From: Flavobacterium akiainvivens
Lineage (GTDB): Bacteria; Bacteroidota; Bacteroidia; Flavobacteriales; Flavobacteriaceae
Length of the DNA: 64,000 nucleotides
Reading direction: 5' to 3'
NCBI RefSeq assembly: GCF_001278115.1
Contig: NZ_LIYD01000005.1
Location: 4,436,258-4,500,257, forward strand
Part shown: positions 56,965-62,212 of the stretch, one piece after another
Position numbering within the stretch: position 1 is the first letter of the stretch
How the letters are laid out: each line of letters starts with the position of its first letter
Notes under the pieces: generated by a model
The model's database searches: none
The model's input: only the letters and a program-made list of their open reading frames with translations
Told to the model about the DNA's origin: nothing
Position numbers and translations under genes: made by a program

Positions 56965-57261
56965 CTAAAAGTGCAGCTTATCAGGGTGCTGGCGTACATC
57001 ATAAATGCGGAGTACCTGGATTTCAGATGTTTCTTCCCTGAAATATAAGGTGTTGTGTTTGGTAACAACGCATTTGCGAATGTTGTGGTTTTTGTCGAAG
57101 TATGGAAAGAGTTCAGGTTGTCCTGCTATTTTGATGACTTTTTGATCAAGTATGTCAAGAAATGTAATTGTAACTTCTTTATACCAATGTAAATCAAGGT
57201 ATTCAAGAATTGTTATAAGGTCTTTTTCTGCCTGCGAAGACCATATGATATTTTTACTCAT
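56965..57261 (-). CDS. ParE/RelE-type toxin
   Basis: A 98-residue RelE/ParE-fold protein: KNIIWSSQAEKDLITILEYL at the start, then ITFLDILDQKVIKIAGQPEL and a C-terminal VLRIYDVRQHPDKL. ParE toxins inhibit gyrase and RelE toxins cleave mRNA; the catalytic residues are not conserved enough here to choose. It overlaps the antitoxin gene by eight bases downstream of it. Confidence 0.85.
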   Translation of the reverse strand: MSKNIIWSSQAEKDLITILEYLDLHWYKEVTITFLDILDQKVIKIAGQPELFPYFDKNHNIRKCVVTKHNTLYFREETSEIQVLRIYDVRQHPDKLHF

Positions 57262-57514
57262 ACCTGCTGCGCATCTGTTTCATAACATCATTATGAGATT
57301 TGCCCCCATTTGCCTTTATATCCTCCAAAGCATCATATATACCTTGCCTTTGCGCTGTAGAAAGGTTATCCCATTCGGTTACCATTTCTGGCTCCTGTAC
57401 GGTATAAGTAATCTCGTCTTCAAGGTATTGCACGGTAAGGCCAAGCCTGGTGGCGAAGTTGGCAATAAGTTTTATATCTTCTTTAGAATTTCCTTTTAAT
57501 AGCAGTCTTTTCAT
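57254..57514 (-). CDS. Antitoxin of the ParE/RelE pair
   Basis: From ATG 57514 an 86-residue protein with an N-terminal helix-strand segment (KRLLLKGNSKEDIKLIANFA) and an acidic, helical C-terminus (TEWDNLSTAQRQGIYDALED) that should wrap the toxin. It resembles the DUF2683/antitoxin partner of flavobacterial ParE systems. The start two codons earlier (TTG) is less likely. It precedes and overlaps the toxin gene. Confidence 0.8.
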   Translation of the reverse strand: MKRLLLKGNSKEDIKLIANFATRLGLTVQYLEDEITYTVQEPEMVTEWDNLSTAQRQGIYDALEDIKANGGKSHNDVMKQMRSRYE

Positions 57515-57662
57515 ATCCAAATGCTTAATTTATACACAAATATACCTAATTTTACAGTTCGTCCGCTAAAATCTACAACTGGGTAACAAGGTTTTTAAAA
57601 GGTGGGTTTTTGTGTGCAACTTTGCTTCATCAAATAACAACAACCATTTAAAACCTAAAGTT

Positions 57663-58292
57663 ATGATACGAGTTTTTACCACCTTCTTCCTTTTTATCTT
57701 TGGCCTTGCTAATGCACAAACACAGTATGAAACCGGTATGAAAAAAGCATTTACCCTGTGGGGTGAAGGCAAAAGTACAGAGGCTTCGGCACTTTTTGAG
57801 CGCATTGCCGCTGCCGAGAAAACCAACTGGCTGCCCAGCTACTATGTGGCGCTGGTAAACACTACCGATGCATTCCAAACACAGGATAAAGAAAAGATAA
57901 GCGCACTGCTTGCCAAGGCTGAGGCAGCGGCTGATAACGCCGAGATGATTTCGCCGGACAACAGCGAGATACTGGTAATACAGGCCCTGATACAAACCGC
58001 ATGGATAGTATATGACCCTATGACAAACGGTATGAAGCTGAGCGGAAAGGTAAATGAACTCTACACTAAAGCCATGAAACTGAACCCTAACAACCCCCGT
58101 GCTGTATTTGGCAAGGCTGAATTTGAAATGGGTGGCGCCAAGTACTTTGGCGGCGATATAAAGCCCATGTGTGCAGAGGTAGAGCGTTCAATTAAACTTT
58201 TTGATACCTTTAAGCCGGAGAGCGAATTTCATCCAAACTGGGGTAAAGACCGCGCAGCAGAGACTCTTAAGGAGTGCCAGACTAAAAAATAA
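57663..58292 (+). CDS. Exported tetratricopeptide-like protein
   Basis: From ATG 57663 a 209-residue protein with a signal peptide (FTTFFLFIFGLANAQ) and helical repeats of TPR type (KAFTLWGEGKSTEASALFER, LLAKAEAAADNAEMISPDN, YTKAMKLNPNNPRAVFGKA). It is directly upstream of the LytS-2TM kinase, seven bases away, and may be a periplasmic partner of that system. Binding partner unknown. Confidence 0.78.
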   Translation: MIRVFTTFFLFIFGLANAQTQYETGMKKAFTLWGEGKSTEASALFERIAAAEKTNWLPSYYVALVNTTDAFQTQDKEKISALLAKAEAAADNAEMISPDNSEILVIQALIQTAWIVYDPMTNGMKLSGKVNELYTKAMKLNPNNPRAVFGKAEFEMGGAKYFGGDIKPMCAEVERSIKLFDTFKPESEFHPNWGKDRAAETLKECQTKK

Positions 58293-58298
58293 TACAAT

Positions 58299-59639
58299 AT
58301 GAAGTTTATAATCAGGGAGTTATTTAAGGCAGTGGGCATGGGGCTGGTTATCTTTGTGGTACTGGTGCTTATACAGCTGGCGCAGGGAGACGATTTACAA
58401 AGCAACCTGCAACTGCGCAACCTGCTCTATGTATTGTTGTACACTGTGCTGTTGCACATGGCTAATACCGGTGTTTTTGCCCTGATGGACCATATTTTTA
58501 AAGGAGTAAAACTATCGCCTAAAAGGTTATTGCTGGGGTTTGTGTCTTCTTTTGTAGTGTCAGCCCTAATCATTTTTTTGCTCCACGCATTCCAAAGGGT
58601 TTTAGTAGAAGGGAAGCCCCTTATGCAGCACCTGCGGGATGAACGCCTAAGCAACTACTATGTTGCTATGACCATTACGCTAATTATTACGTTCTTTTGG
58701 CACCTGTTTTACTTCTATAAAAAGTACCAGGAAAACAGGGTAAAACAGCAAAAGATTATTGCGGGTACGGCATCAGCCAAGTTTGAAACCCTTAAGAACC
58801 AGATAGACCCGCACTTTTTGTTTAACAGCCTTAATGTACTGAGTTCGCTTATCGAAGAAAACCCCGATAACGCCCAGCGCTTTACCACATCACTCAGCAA
58901 GGTGTACCGCTATGTGCTGGAACAGAAGGATAAAGAGCTGGTAAGTATTGAAGAAGAGCTGGCCTTTGCCAAAACCTATATGAACCTGCTCAAGATGCGC
59001 TTTGAAAACAGTGTGTTTTATGAGCTGCCTGAAAAGGTTAATAACCCTGATGCCCTGGTGGTACCGCTCTCGCTACAGCTGCTTTTAGAAAACACTATTA
59101 AGCACAATATAGTAAGCCAGCAAAAGCCACTGCACATTCGCATATTTGAAGAAAACGGCTATCTGGTAGTGCAAAACGACCTCCAGAAAAAAGAGGTACT
59201 TCAGGACCGCCGCGGTGTTGGGCTACAGAATATACTGAGCCGTTATGCCATTATAACCTCCCGAAAGGTGCAGGTAGAAGAATCTGACAAGTATTTTACG
59301 GTAAAGCTACCGGTTTTAACCAAACAAGTAACCATTATGGAAACTACATATAACGAAAAGAATTCTGCTTACTATAAAGCACAAAAAAAGGTAGAAGAAA
59401 TAAAAGGCTTTTATGGCAACCTGTTCTCTTACATTGTGGTAATTACAGGCCTGGCCATACTAAATATGCTAACAAGCCCAAGCCACTGGTGGTTTTTATA
59501 CCCGGCACTGGGCTGGGGTATAGGGGTGGCGCTACACGGTATGGCGGTGTTTAACTATATGCCGTTCCTTGGGTCTGACTGGGAAGAGCGTAAGCTTAAG
59601 CAACTGATGGATAAAGACAGGAATAATAAGTGGCAGTAG
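58299..59639 (+). CDS. LytS-type sensor histidine kinase fused to a 2TM domain
   Basis: A 446-residue protein. Four N-terminal membrane helices (residues 11-30, 42-62, 79-96, 121-141) precede a LytS/YehU-type kinase: phospho-accepting H172 in QIDPHFLFNSLN, N-box ENTIKHN (264-270) and RRGVGLQN. At residue 347 an in-frame Met opens a 2TM domain (AQKKVEEIKGFYGNLFSYIV, then GWGIGVALHGMAVFNYMPF, SDWEERK). The kinase would signal to the LytTR regulator at 60805. The fusion places a 2TM domain after the ATPase domain. Confidence 0.87.
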   Translation: MKFIIRELFKAVGMGLVIFVVLVLIQLAQGDDLQSNLQLRNLLYVLLYTVLLHMANTGVFALMDHIFKGVKLSPKRLLLGFVSSFVVSALIIFLLHAFQRVLVEGKPLMQHLRDERLSNYYVAMTITLIITFFWHLFYFYKKYQENRVKQQKIIAGTASAKFETLKNQIDPHFLFNSLNVLSSLIEENPDNAQRFTTSLSKVYRYVLEQKDKELVSIEEELAFAKTYMNLLKMRFENSVFYELPEKVNNPDALVVPLSLQLLLENTIKHNIVSQQKPLHIRIFEENGYLVVQNDLQKKEVLQDRRGVGLQNILSRYAIITSRKVQVEESDKYFTVKLPVLTKQVTIMETTYNEKNSAYYKAQKKVEEIKGFYGNLFSYIVVITGLAILNMLTSPSHWWFLYPALGWGIGVALHGMAVFNYMPFLGSDWEERKLKQLMDKDRNNKWQ

Positions 59640-59654
59640 GCCTTAATATTCGGG

Positions 59655-59682
59655 GTTCAAAGTTCATTGTTCAGAGTTCAAT
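59655..59682. repeat. Heptamer array GTTCANN, four units
   Basis: GTTCAAA, GTTCATT, GTTCAGA, GTTCAAT in exact 7-base phase, starting 15 bases after the kinase stop codon and 18 bases before the next ATG. Confidence 0.8.
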
Positions 59683-59700
59683 CATCAAAAGAAATCAATC

Positions 59701-60027
59701 ATGGAAGCGTATAATGAGTTTGACACAGAAAGCGTAGCCTATAAAAAAGCTAAGGATAAGATTAAGGAAATCAAGGGGTTTTATTACAACCTGGCGTGTT
59801 TTTGTATTGTTATTCCGGTGCTGATATACATCAATCTGAGATACCTGCCGGAGTTTCACTGGTTTTGGTTTAGCATAGCGGGCTGGGGTACGGGCGTAAT
59901 TATACAGGGTATGTTTGCCTTTGGCTGGGTGCCGTTTTTAGGCAAAGACTGGGAAACCCGCAAAATCAACCAGATTATGGAGCAGGGCAGAAAGCGAGAA
60001 GAACAGGAGCAACACTTTAAAAACTAA
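59701..60027 (+). CDS. 2TM domain-containing protein
   Basis: A 108-residue 2TM protein: KKAKDKIKEIKGFYYNLACF, IPVLIYINL, then FSIAGWGTGVIIQGMFAFG and the basic tail DWETRKINQIMEQ. The first of three stand-alone copies after the kinase. 2TM proteins are characteristic of flavobacteria and are commonly found with LytS/LytTR systems. They probably sit in the inner membrane with both ends in the cytoplasm. Confidence 0.85.
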   Translation: MEAYNEFDTESVAYKKAKDKIKEIKGFYYNLACFCIVIPVLIYINLRYLPEFHWFWFSIAGWGTGVIIQGMFAFGWVPFLGKDWETRKINQIMEQGRKREEQEQHFKN

Positions 60028-60030
60028 ACC

Positions 60031-60324
60031 ATGAACCCAACAGACAACCACAGGCAAATTGCCTACAGGCGGGTAGCACAACTCAGGAGTTTTTATACGC
60101 ACCTGGCTATTTATATACTGATAAACATAGCATTACTGCTGCCTTATTTTATGCTTAACATTGCCGCAATTTTCTGGCAGCGCTGTTTTATTATTATGAT
60201 AGGCGTTGCAGGGCTGGGGGTTTTGGGGCACGCCATGTGGGTTTTCGGGCCCAAGTTTTTCCTACCGTCTAAATGGGAAAGCCGCAAAATGAAGCAGTTT
60301 AAGGATGAATCGGAGCGTAGGTAG
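60031..60324 (+). CDS. 2TM domain-containing protein
   Basis: A 97-residue divergent 2TM protein: RRVAQLRSFYTHLAIYILIN, IMIGVAGLGVLGHAMWVFG, then SKWESRKMKQFKDE. It follows the previous copy by three bases, so the two are translationally coupled. The GFYxNL motif is replaced by SFYTHL, and a longer first helix pair suggests functional divergence. Confidence 0.82.
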   Translation: MNPTDNHRQIAYRRVAQLRSFYTHLAIYILINIALLLPYFMLNIAAIFWQRCFIIMIGVAGLGVLGHAMWVFGPKFFLPSKWESRKMKQFKDESERR

Positions 60325-60341
60325 TAGTTTGCAGTCGCAGT

Positions 60342-60373
60342 CTCAGCACCTAAGCACCTCAGTACCTAAGAAC
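60342..60373. repeat. Octamer array CTNAGNAC, four units
   Basis: CTCAGCAC, CTAAGCAC, CTCAGTAC, CTAAGAAC in exact 8-base phase. It is the reverse-orientation counterpart of 37622-37661 and is located between two 2TM genes. Confidence 0.8.
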
Positions 60374-60405
60374 CTTTAAAAACATTACAACATATATAAA
60401 ATATC

Positions 60406-60726
60406 ATGGAACCAACATTTGAAGAACAGGCAAGGCTTGATAAAGCCAAAAAGAAAGTAAAGGCTATAAAAGGGTTTTATTCGCACCTGGCGGCCTATTT
60501 AATTGTAAATATTGTACTTATCATAATGCATACGGCCGATCTTAAAGAGGGCGAAAATTTTTGGCACTGGAGCACCTTTAGTACTGCATTCTTTTGGGGT
60601 ATAGGCCTTTTGTGCCACGCCTTTGGGGTATTTGGCACCGATGTTTTCCTGGGGTCTGACTGGGAAGAGCGCAAAATAAAAGAGTATATGGACAAAAAGC
60701 CTGAATCGCACAGCAGGTGGGAATAG
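60406..60726 (+). CDS. 2TM domain-containing protein
   Basis: A 106-residue 2TM protein with KKKVKAIKGFYSHLAAYLIV, STAFFWGIGLLCHAFGVFG and GSDWEERKIKEYMDKK. The tail matches the 2TM domain fused to the kinase (SDWEERKLKQLMDK), so these two copies are the closest pair. It is separated from the LytTR gene by 78 bases carrying a heptamer array. Confidence 0.85.
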   Translation: MEPTFEEQARLDKAKKKVKAIKGFYSHLAAYLIVNIVLIIMHTADLKEGENFWHWSTFSTAFFWGIGLLCHAFGVFGTDVFLGSDWEERKIKEYMDKKPESHSRWE

Positions 60727-60730
60727 AGGA

Positions 60731-60758
60731 CAGTTTGCAGATAGCAGTTTGCAGTCCC
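60731..60758. repeat. Heptamer array CAGNNNN, four units
   Basis: CAGTTTG, CAGATAG, CAGTTTG, CAGTCCC in exact 7-base phase, starting four bases after the 2TM stop codon. Confidence 0.75.
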
Positions 60759-60804
60759 GGTGTACAGTTGAGTGAGAACTTTAAACTTTAAACAAACCAA
60801 CTAA

Positions 60805-61560
60805 ATGAACGTAATAATTATTGAAGACGAAAAGCCTGCGGCGCGCCTGCTGCAGCGAAAATTGGCGAGGCTGGATATTGAGGCCCAAACCATGCTGCAC
60901 TCGGTAGAGGAAGCGCTGGAATGGTTTGGCAGTAACCCGCAGCCTGACCTTATTTTCCTGGACATACAGCTTAGCGACGGGCTTTCGTTTGAAATTTTTG
61001 AGGCCATGCCCATTAGCAGCGCCATTATTTTTACCACGGCTTATGATGAATATGCCCTTCGTGCCTTTAAGCTTAACAGCATAGACTACCTGCTGAAGCC
61101 TATTGATGAAGATGACCTGGAAGCTGCCGTTAAGAAATTCCGCGCACGCCAGCCCAAGGAACAGCCGCTGTCGCTGGATTTTGACCAGATTAAGCGTATG
61201 CTGTCAAACCCTTCTGAAAAGGCCTACAAGAAGCGTTTTACCATTAAAATGGGCCAGCACCTTAAGATGGTTAATGTTGAGGATGCCGAGTGCTTTTACA
61301 GCGAAAACAAGGGCACCTACATACACACTACCGAAAACCGCAGCTACCTGCTGGAAAATACCCTTGAGCAGCTTGAAAATGAGCTCGACCCCAAGCAGTT
61401 TTTCCGCGTGAGCCGCAAGTTTATTGTGCACATAAGCGCCATAAAAGATATTGTTGTGTATACCAACTCCCGCCTTAAGATTATCCTGCCTACCTACAAA
61501 GAAGACGAGGTTATTGTAAGCCGGGAACGTGTAAACGACTTTAGGGAGTGGCTGGGGTAG
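60805..61560 (+). CDS. LytTR family response regulator
   Basis: A 251-residue regulator with receiver domain (EDEKPAARLL at the N-terminus, phospho-acceptor D53 in LIFLDIQLSDG, K near 105 in YLLKPID) and a C-terminal LytTR DNA-binding domain from about residue 143 (FTIKMGQHLKMVNVEDAECF, FFRVSRKFIVHISAI). It is the cognate regulator of the LytS-2TM kinase, encoded four genes upstream. Confidence 0.93.
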   Translation: MNVIIIEDEKPAARLLQRKLARLDIEAQTMLHSVEEALEWFGSNPQPDLIFLDIQLSDGLSFEIFEAMPISSAIIFTTAYDEYALRAFKLNSIDYLLKPIDEDDLEAAVKKFRARQPKEQPLSLDFDQIKRMLSNPSEKAYKKRFTIKMGQHLKMVNVEDAECFYSENKGTYIHTTENRSYLLENTLEQLENELDPKQFFRVSRKFIVHISAIKDIVVYTNSRLKIILPTYKEDEVIVSRERVNDFREWLG

Positions 61561-61572
61561 CGCCACAGGCGC

Positions 61573-61600
61573 GTTTGTAGTTCATGGTTTATGGTTGTTT
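61573..61600. repeat. Heptamer array GTTYNTN, four units
   Basis: GTTTGTA, GTTCATG, GTTTATG, GTTGTTT in exact 7-base phase, 13 bases after the LytTR stop. Confidence 0.65.
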
Positions 61601-61670
61601 TTAAAGTTTTGTTTGTTGATTGAATCTGTACAGGTCAGATTCTTTAAAGCGATGATTACGCAGCCCAGCT

Positions 61671-61698
61671 TGTAATTTGTGATTTGTAATTTGTTTTT
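61671..61698. repeat. Heptamer array TGTAATT, four units
   Basis: TGTAATT, TGTGATT, TGTAATT, TGTTTTT in exact 7-base phase within the gene-free spacer before the DoxX gene. Confidence 0.75.
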
Positions 61699-61780
61699 GG
61701 AGTTTACTTCTCTGGATTTTAGTTTGTTATGGTAAATTCTTTACCTTTAATGAGAATTTCCAACCAAAATATTTCCAATC

Positions 61781-62212
61781 ATGAAGATAAACACACCTAC
61801 TACAACTGCCCAAAATATCTTTAGGATAGTATTGGGCTGCCTGTTGCTGTTTACCGGCACCGGCCACCTAACTTTTGTACGCCATGATTTTGCGGCTCAG
61901 GTTCCCACCTGGGTTCCTCTTGAAGCCGATTTAGTTGTGCTTATTTCCGGTGTTGTAGAAATCCTGCTGGGACTGTCGCTTGTAGCACTTGGCAGGTATA
62001 AAGTAGTGGTAGGCTGGGTAGTGGCGCTGTTTTTTGTGGTCATCTTTCCCGGTAATTATGCGCAATATGCCAACCATGTAGATGCTTTTGGCCTTAATAG
62101 TGATAGTTTGCGTCTTACCCGCCTGTTTTTACACCCGCTTTTGGTTATCTGGCCATTATGGAGTTGTGGCTCATGGAAAGCGGCTTTTGGCAAAAAGGAA
62201 ACAACAGCCTAA
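61781..62212 (+). CDS. DoxX family membrane protein
   Basis: A 143-residue protein with four hydrophobic helices (IFRIVLGCLLLFTGTGHLTF, LVVLISGVVEILLGLSLVAL, VVVGWVVALFFVVIFPGNYA, LFLHPLLVIWPLW). The pattern RIVLGxxLxFTGxxH is typical of DoxX/DoxD-like proteins associated with quinone oxidoreductases. Its end overlaps the convergent endonuclease V gene by four bases. Confidence 0.82.
   Translation: MKINTPTTTAQNIFRIVLGCLLLFTGTGHLTFVRHDFAAQVPTWVPLEADLVVLISGVVEILLGLSLVALGRYKVVVGWVVALFFVVIFPGNYAQYANHVDAFGLNSDSLRLTRLFLHPLLVIWPLWSCGSWKAAFGKKETTA

Follow-up and report, generated by a model that had tools for sequence, protein, structure and literature searches.

A probably autoregulated LytS/LytTR operon of Flavobacterium akiainvivens and its relatives, in which an assembly of 2TM proteins may control the kinase

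In a 64,000-nucleotide stretch of the genome of Flavobacterium akiainvivens (contig NZ_LIYD01000005.1; the whole of this stretch is referred to as the window), a LytS-type histidine kinase was found to continue, behind its ATPase domain, into a C-terminal 2TM domain, and to be followed by three genes for free 2TM proteins and one for a LytTR response regulator. Judged by sequence comparison, this operon is present in two families of the order, where it comprises a TPR-like gene, the fused kinase, free 2TM genes (in most cases one to seven) and the regulator. The gene order, the fusion, the conservation of both, the existence of two types of 2TM domain and a conserved direct repeat are evident from the sequences. 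The unit as a whole is probably an autoregulated LytS/LytTR operon with a 2TM assembly that controls the kinase, a reading to which we assign a probability of roughly 0.55. The features of the locus, all on the + strand, are as follows.

57554-57584, + strand: probable LytTR-type operator, ACAGTTCGTC-N11-ACAACTGGGT, with a 21-nucleotide period; it aligns with the repeat of the relatives.
57617-57624, + strand: possible -7 promoter element, CAACTTTG, 32 nucleotides after the repeat; its first base differs from TAnnTTTG.
57663-58292, + strand: TPR-like protein of 209 residues with a signal-like N-terminal stretch and TPR matches in Pfam below the cut-off; probable first gene of the operon.
58299-59639, + strand: LytS-type histidine kinase with a C-terminal 2TM domain, 446 residues, identified by Pfam, an AlphaFold model, a fold match to GanS and conservation; its parts are, in order, four N-terminal membrane helices, a DHp domain with His172, the ATPase domain, a linker and the 2TM domain.
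59337-59339, + strand: internal ATG (Met347), the proposed second start, for a predicted free 2TM protein of 100 residues (59337-59639).
59376-59612, + strand: 2TM domain (PF13239) of the kinase, type I-like, with N24 and I32 but T33 in place of P33.
59701-60027, + strand: free 2TM protein 1, 108 residues, type I (PF13239, 83.8 bits; N24/I32/P33).
60031-60324, + strand: free 2TM protein 2, 97 residues, type II (PF13239, 54.8 bits; H24/N32/H63).
60406-60726, + strand: free 2TM protein 3, 106 residues, type II (PF13239, 96.8 bits; H24/N32/H63).
60805-61560, + strand: LytTR response regulator, 251 residues (Response_reg PF00072, 51.7 bits; LytTR PF04397, 81.2 bits).

Within the kinase, Pfam places PF06580 at residues 160-238 (91.1 bits, cut-off 25.2) and PF13239 at residues 360-438 (100.6 bits, cut-off 24.8). 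The four PF13239 copies at the locus score from 54.8 to 100.6 bits, all above that cut-off, and only one further copy exists elsewhere in the genome, for a total of five. The regulator possesses both a receiver and a LytTR DNA-binding domain. That the kinase frame runs through Met347 into a full 2TM domain, and is followed by three free 2TM genes and the LytTR regulator, had been read by an initial annotation of this DNA, and the list of open reading frames (ORFs) together with the Pfam matches bears this out in full. The unit proposed there began too late; its upstream end comprises the repeat (from 57554) and then the TPR-like gene (from 57663), which ends 6 nucleotides ahead of the kinase. 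The motif SDWEERK, noted earlier as common to the fused and the last free copy, is indeed present in both, but it lies close to the family consensus (columns 76-82) and hence carries no special link between them; the fused domain is 44% identical to the last free copy and 46% to the first.

The fusion is the standard form of this kinase. A match at E ≤ 1e-50 was obtained in 117 of 149 sampled Flavobacteriaceae genomes (116 of 148 genera), and in 116 of these 117 the alignment continues into the 2TM part. With a sample of the genus, some kinase match was found in 57 of 61 genomes and reached the 2TM part in 44, as counted from the listing. Of 80 named loci, one (L202) is too short to call, and all 79 callable kinases are fused to a 2TM domain; these loci carry 0 to 6 free 2TM genes (commonest, 2) and, in 74 of the 79, a downstream regulator, while across all operons read there are between 0 and 7 such free genes. 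The closest named relative found by the kinase is F. rivuli (73% identity), and the same arrangement occurs in a second family of the order (L130-L134). The concern that the fused frame might be an assembly error is met by these counts, and the kinase-2TM neighbourhood, the loss of which would have spoken against a partnership, is kept in both families. As for the relative frequency of fused and split forms, no split orthologue was seen inside the order. The sole exception to the fusion in the family sample, genome G187, has a kinase ending at residue 341 with the regulator adjoining and no PF13239 match anywhere in the genome; a further 32 of the 149 genomes gave no kinase match at E ≤ 1e-50. 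One stop was counted within the aligned stretch in each of four genomes (G131, G160, G179, G188), and the callable ORF of G131 has only 312 residues (L126). Additional natural fusions were encountered: the kinase of L127 bears two 2TM domains, and at L205 two free-type 2TM domains share a single ORF of 191 residues. Genes are sometimes inserted between kinase and regulator, with similar proteins of 496-520 residues in L169, L174 and L188, and of 378 residues in L118 and L241.

The catalytic core of the kinase was compared in an alignment (A2) of the window kinase with 69 of the 79 fused kinases from the named loci. PF06580 was matched at E ≤ 0.001 in 70 of 70 members, and H172, N265, K268, H269 and N270 are invariant throughout, the phospho-acceptor His lying in PHFLFN and the N-box being LLLENxxKHN. 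The 5TM-LYT family of Pfam gave no match at E ≤ 0.1 in the window kinase, nor in any member of A2 at E ≤ 0.001; being a subfamily feature, its absence leaves membership of the broader LytS-type family intact. The AlphaFold model of the kinase, with a predicted local distance difference test (pLDDT) of 84.1 and a predicted template modelling score (pTM) of 0.47, comprises four long N-terminal helices, the DHp and the ATPase, then a linker (343-351) under pLDDT 50, and then helices 357-392, 400-418 and 427-443. The nearest fold to the kinase part is GanS (6swk; Z 13.4, root-mean-square deviation 5.0 over 172 residues), and GanS (6swj, 5e-17) is also the only solved relative recovered by sequence at E ≤ 0.001. 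The membrane part (residues 1-145, 58299-58733) is largely variable, yet all 70 sequences share N56, which lies in its second helix and is possibly a sensing residue.

An internal start at Met347 is strongly indicated. Met occupies this position in 114 of 142 distinct kinase sequences, always as ATG; in the linker columns around it (344-346 and 348-357) the commonest residue accounts for only 15-63%. A first start-context score for Met347 was confounded by the conserved TKQ residues, was not used as evidence, and was replaced by a synonymous-codon test, in which the GC of each codon is compared with that of the remaining codons by which the gene encodes that amino acid. For codons 338-351, a range fixed after the profile had been viewed (Met347 itself having been proposed earlier), the 114 loci with Met347 gave a deviation of -0.185 per codon, ranking 1 of 404 windows (the others having a mean of 0.002 and a standard deviation of 0.040). 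The value at the true gene start was -0.075. The deviation is negative in 96% of the Met347 loci and amounts to -0.326 in the window gene; thinned to 37 representatives of less than 65% identity, the loci gave -0.182, rank 2 of 404 among windows that overlap. At other columns with frequent Met it ranged from +0.006 to +0.080, except for column 339 (-0.043), which overlaps the region, and the linker of the regulator is flat, with -0.061 as its lowest internal window. Predicted RNA folding from -25 to +25 of the Met347 ATG is weaker than in synonymous shuffles (-2.23 versus -3.86 kcal/mol, p 1e-16), the opposite of control internal ATGs (-7.28 versus -6.29 kcal/mol in shuffles). Low structure from -20 to +20 and a preference for upstream adenines are features of F. 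johnsoniae starts in an excerpt of a ribosome profiling study (PMC6847099); the papers cited below by PMC number are likewise cited from excerpts. A conserved internal ATG with signals of initiation, as expected of genes of the SctQ/Cas11b type, is present. Because Met347 is conserved, coincides with the strongest AT-bias and weak RNA structure, and is accompanied by a bias that is weaker where the Met is missing, the kinase gene probably also yields a free 100-residue 2TM subunit from 59337. An unfused kinase at L284, a locus from outside the order with, in this sequence, a 2TM gene, a kinase lacking the 2TM domain and a regulator, ends LPIL-KSEK exactly where the fused ones go on with TKQ..MET, and the fusion point may for this reason be an old gene boundary.

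Alignment of 538 2TM domains allowed two types to be set by two chosen motif positions, 32 and 33. Type I has P33 without N32, usually with I32 and N24; type II has N32, usually with H24 and H63. On this basis the 146 fused domains divide into 133 of type I, 5 of type II and 8 unclassified, and 96 of the free copies are likewise unclassified; the 146 operons come from two overlapping fetches and are not independent, and 145 of them have the fused domain inside the length range. The fused domain of the window (N24, I32, T33) is among the unclassified and is treated as type I-like. A free type II copy occurs in 140 of the 146 operons by motif and in 137 of 142 distinct operons by profile score, and the final free 2TM gene is type II in 127 of 144. 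The free copies of the window are, in order, I, II and II, and the smallest common form (22 operons) consists of a fused type I domain, one free type II and the regulator. In the AlphaFold model of free 2TM protein 3, helices span residues 5-44 and 55-97; the conserved polar H24, N32 and H63 of type II fall inside predicted membrane helices. A general bis-histidine heme site was considered, given that H24 and H63 co-occur in many type II domains, but it is unsupported, as the fused copy mostly has N24 (79%); a heme site confined to type II is conceivable. A fold search with the free 2TM model returned no row above Z 7.0 and a mix of unrelated helical proteins, and the 2TM profile searched against solved structures gave nothing below E 0.14; the lack of such matches does not demonstrate a new fold.

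Upstream of the kinase, a TPR-like homologue lies on the same strand at 64 of the 79 named loci (62 of the 74 with more than 1500 nucleotides upstream) at a median gap of 22 nucleotides, a TonB receptor at 45 and a DUF2141 gene at 16. One receptor and one DUF2141 member were confirmed by Pfam; the TPR matches fall below the cut-off. The ORF list of the window, back to about 54.9 kb, contains no receptor-sized ORF on the + strand. A direct repeat, ACARYTCATC-N11-ACARTTCRGT, precedes the TPR and receptor genes, with scores of at least 16 of 20 in 36 of 66 TPR and 29 of 41 receptor upstream regions (0.000 and 0.005 in shuffles). Exactly 32 nucleotides 3' of the best repeat, TAnnTTTG is found in 22 of the 66 and 18 of the 41 regions, respectively; we take this consensus to be that of a promoter element. 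The repeat of the window stands at the same distance from the TPR gene as in L170, L171 and L246; it is the only match in the window at ≤3 mismatches (expected, 0.18) and the sole exact match in the genome, both with a search pattern that had been widened to include the window copy. A period of about 21 nucleotides is expected of LytTR sites, and a direct repeat of this period is present near the putative promoter, as a weak copy in the window.

With 15 relatives, hand-chosen among genomes with a fused kinase, the widened pattern at ≤1 mismatch gave 29 sites, 1-3 per genome, compared to 1 in all for a reversed-pattern control. Within this gene region lie 26 of the 29; the sites of L320 and L328 were assigned to it by position relative to the kinase, and TPR and receptor genes were recognized by eye. 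Among 27 resolved sites, 15 precede the receptor, 9 the TPR gene and 3 other genes. At L340 the repeat precedes a membrane-protein gene with a weak DUF2306 match under the cut-off, a homologue of genes inserted in the operon of L187, L198, L200 and L205 (best, 38%, 3e-40). At L317 and L324 the repeat stands 65-74 nucleotides before what is seemingly the same 351-residue protein, with no Pfam match, a candidate member of the regulon. Binding of the regulator to the 21-nucleotide-period repeat is strongly indicated. Since there are 1-3 repeats per genome, and nearly all in this gene region, the main targets of the regulator are probably its own operon and a neighbouring TonB receptor.

The following sequence of events is proposed. 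The kinase would be anchored in the membrane on either side of its ATP-binding domain, by four helices on the N-terminal side and by the 2TM hairpin on the C-terminal side. This hairpin would be joined by free 2TM proteins of type II and by the type I-like 2TM protein probably made from the Met347 start, and the resulting assembly would shift how the hairpin places the ATP-binding domain and so set autokinase or phosphatase activity. Once phosphorylated, the regulator would bind the repeat, whereupon its own operon would be transcribed more strongly, as would the gene of a nearby TonB-dependent receptor in many Flavobacterium; the ratio of subunits would thereby feed back on the kinase. The odds that 2TM proteins assemble and control the kinase appear about even, and both the direction of regulation and the signal are matters of inference. 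The multi-subunit sensor put forward in the initial annotation is plausible but unproven. The full proposal, that one gene encodes both a kinase and its own free regulatory membrane subunit, that the assembly varies in composition and positions the ATP-binding domain from its C-terminal side, and that a dedicated autoregulated operon sets this composition, is tentative and more doubtful than the overall model.

A number of observations weigh against a 2TM-controlled kinase with an internal start and a dedicated regulator. The pTM of 0.47 leaves the packing of the 2TM domain against the kinase undefined. Of the 38 2TM stretches read outside the order, just one, L284, has a LytS/LytTR pair beside it (the 38 cover 40 of 41 places, G460, below the cut-off, being left out; the 2TM profile itself gave no match in L260, and L255 has one weak regulator-profile match of 27 bits and no kinase). 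Another Flavobacteriaceae 2TM paralogue stands beside (20) or is fused to (5) dihydrofolate reductase in all 25 loci read, which were taken from solitary 2TM copies, five of them having visibly long frames. As to the operator, 30 of the 66 TPR upstream regions score below 16, the window carries a weak copy of the repeat (consensus score 14 of 20), and at ≤2 mismatches the host genome gives 2 matches versus 2 for the reversed control. Regarding the internal start, Met347 is absent in 28 of the 142 sequences, and these 28 loci retain a weaker dip in synonymous GC (-0.061, rank 9 of 404), as do 17 thinned loci without it (-0.085, rank 6 of 404); in the 18 loci with no Met at all in the linker the value is -0.038, rank 49. 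Of 11 independent pairs on the kinase tree, 4.6 to 5.6 showed the bias declining with loss of Met347 and 0.2 the opposite, which is not significant (median p 0.06 to 0.125 over three thresholds); its direction fits a start at Met347 but is suggestive only. The idea that a free type I gene substitutes for a lost Met347, which the uncorrected counts had suggested (22 of 28 against 37 of 114; Fisher 1e-5), failed the phylogeny-aware test (2.2 pairs for and 1.6 against, of 11). The view of the 2TM domain as a partner of the kinase therefore holds as regards the conserved fusion and neighbourhood within the order, but not as a kinase-specific module, given how rarely it lies beside a kinase outside the order and its link to dihydrofolate reductase.

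The main rival holds that 2TM proteins are output rather than sensor subunits, and that they act, together with the TPR-like protein, the TonB receptor and the inserted membrane protein, as envelope effectors produced on demand, whose level is reported by the fused 2TM domain. It draws on the near confinement of the repeat to its own gene region (only 3 of the 29 sites in the 15 relatives fall outside it, and the genome of the window has one exact site), on a free 2TM gene number that varies as effectors would, and on the resemblance of several inserted genes to membrane proteins. Fusion of the 2TM domain to the kinase in nearly every matching species argues the other way, and the near-constant free type II copy suits a stoichiometric partner; the output reading is judged unlikely. 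Less probable still would be a mere membrane anchor or clustering tag, with the free copies as duplications in similarly passive roles. The association with dihydrofolate reductase and the scarcity of kinase neighbours outside the order would suit an anchor; but the kinase already has four N-terminal helices, and a bare anchor needs neither two conserved types nor conserved polar residues in its membrane helices. Inhibition of the LytTR regulator at the membrane by the free 2TM proteins, after the manner of LytTR Regulatory Systems (LRS) and with the kinase as a second input, seems very improbable: common to both are a LytTR regulator near small membrane proteins and a direct repeat ahead of the promoter (PMC6193735), but here there is a receiver domain as well as a kinase whose motifs are conserved, the 2TM domain is fused to the kinase, and no fusion between regulator and 2TM was met in the operons read.

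Separate from these is the question of whether Met347 is a start at all. Its AT-rich codons might instead mark a domain boundary, at which slow translation serves membrane insertion, or an internal promoter, the Met being a relic of the fusion. The weaker dip that persists without Met347 favours such a view, as does the linker being a natural fusion point. Against it, the dip is about threefold weaker without Met347 (p 1e-6, uncorrected for relatedness) and, with it, stronger than at the real start; the regulator linker shows no dip; TAnnTTTG shows no enrichment (6 of 114, as against 9% in control windows), so that the internal promoter was rejected; and a neutral relic would not be expected to survive divergence to about 50% identity. 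A start at Met347 is accordingly preferred, and its absence is considered unlikely.

With other LytS/LytTR-type systems, among which we would place LytSR, BtsSR and YpdAB, the operon shares a PF06580 kinase with a membrane N-terminus, for which GanS 6swk is the nearest fold, and a LytTR regulator; it differs from them in having no 5TM-LYT match, a C-terminal 2TM domain after the ATPase, tandem free 2TM genes and a probable internal start. LRS, such as HdrRM and BrsRM, likewise combine a LytTR regulator, membrane proteins and a direct repeat just 5' of the operon promoter, but as excerpted they consist minimally of a regulator and a membrane inhibitor (PMC6193735) without phosphosignalling, whereas a kinase and a receiver domain are present here. 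Small membrane domains fused to a sensor kinase or free beside it are also known as the PspC and LiaI-LiaF-TM partners, which belong to other families and are described in that excerpt as fused at the N-terminus of the kinase (PMC11237479), not at the C-terminus as here. In SctQ/YscQ (PMC4295842), as in Cas11b from cas8b (PMC11899642), a full-length and a C-terminal product arise by initiation at an internal Met, and the short product of YscQ is required for assembly (PMC4295842); these proteins are unrelated, and their products were shown by experiment, while that proposed here is deduced from sequence. A LytTR/kinase pair mutated during coevolution of F. johnsoniae (PMC10197871) has neighbouring locus numbers in the excerpt, with little room for 2TM genes, and was set aside as probably another system on account of those adjacent numbers. 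Mentions of 2TM in excerpts of PMC9425974 and PMC11237479 concern other proteins, and the excerpt of PMC10057207 mentions LytTR without 2TM. Each domain of the operon is already known and the fusion is visible to Pfam; a search of the open-licence literature found neither a functional description of the fused-kinase/2TM operon nor a paper on a histidine kinase with internal initiation.

Three observations around the locus may be added. The fifth 2TM gene of the genome (L004:926-1770, near 4044712) ends 2 nucleotides before a dihydrofolate reductase gene, and a membrane-tethered dihydrofolate reductase is possible. Just 5' of the repeat, at 56965-57520, are two overlapping minus-strand ORFs of 98 and 88 residues that look toxin-antitoxin-like by eye. 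A search of 57000-62000 against Rfam gave zero matches at the gathering score.

If the proposed reading is true, the operon would represent a new way of controlling a two-component kinase, in which a membrane hairpin and its free homologues gate a histidine kinase from the C-terminal side of its ATPase domain. One of these subunits would come from an internal start, and this in a phylum whose translation begins without Shine-Dalgarno sequences. The candidate operator and the small candidate regulon make the function directly testable, in a system common to most of the sampled Flavobacteriaceae (117 of 149 genomes).

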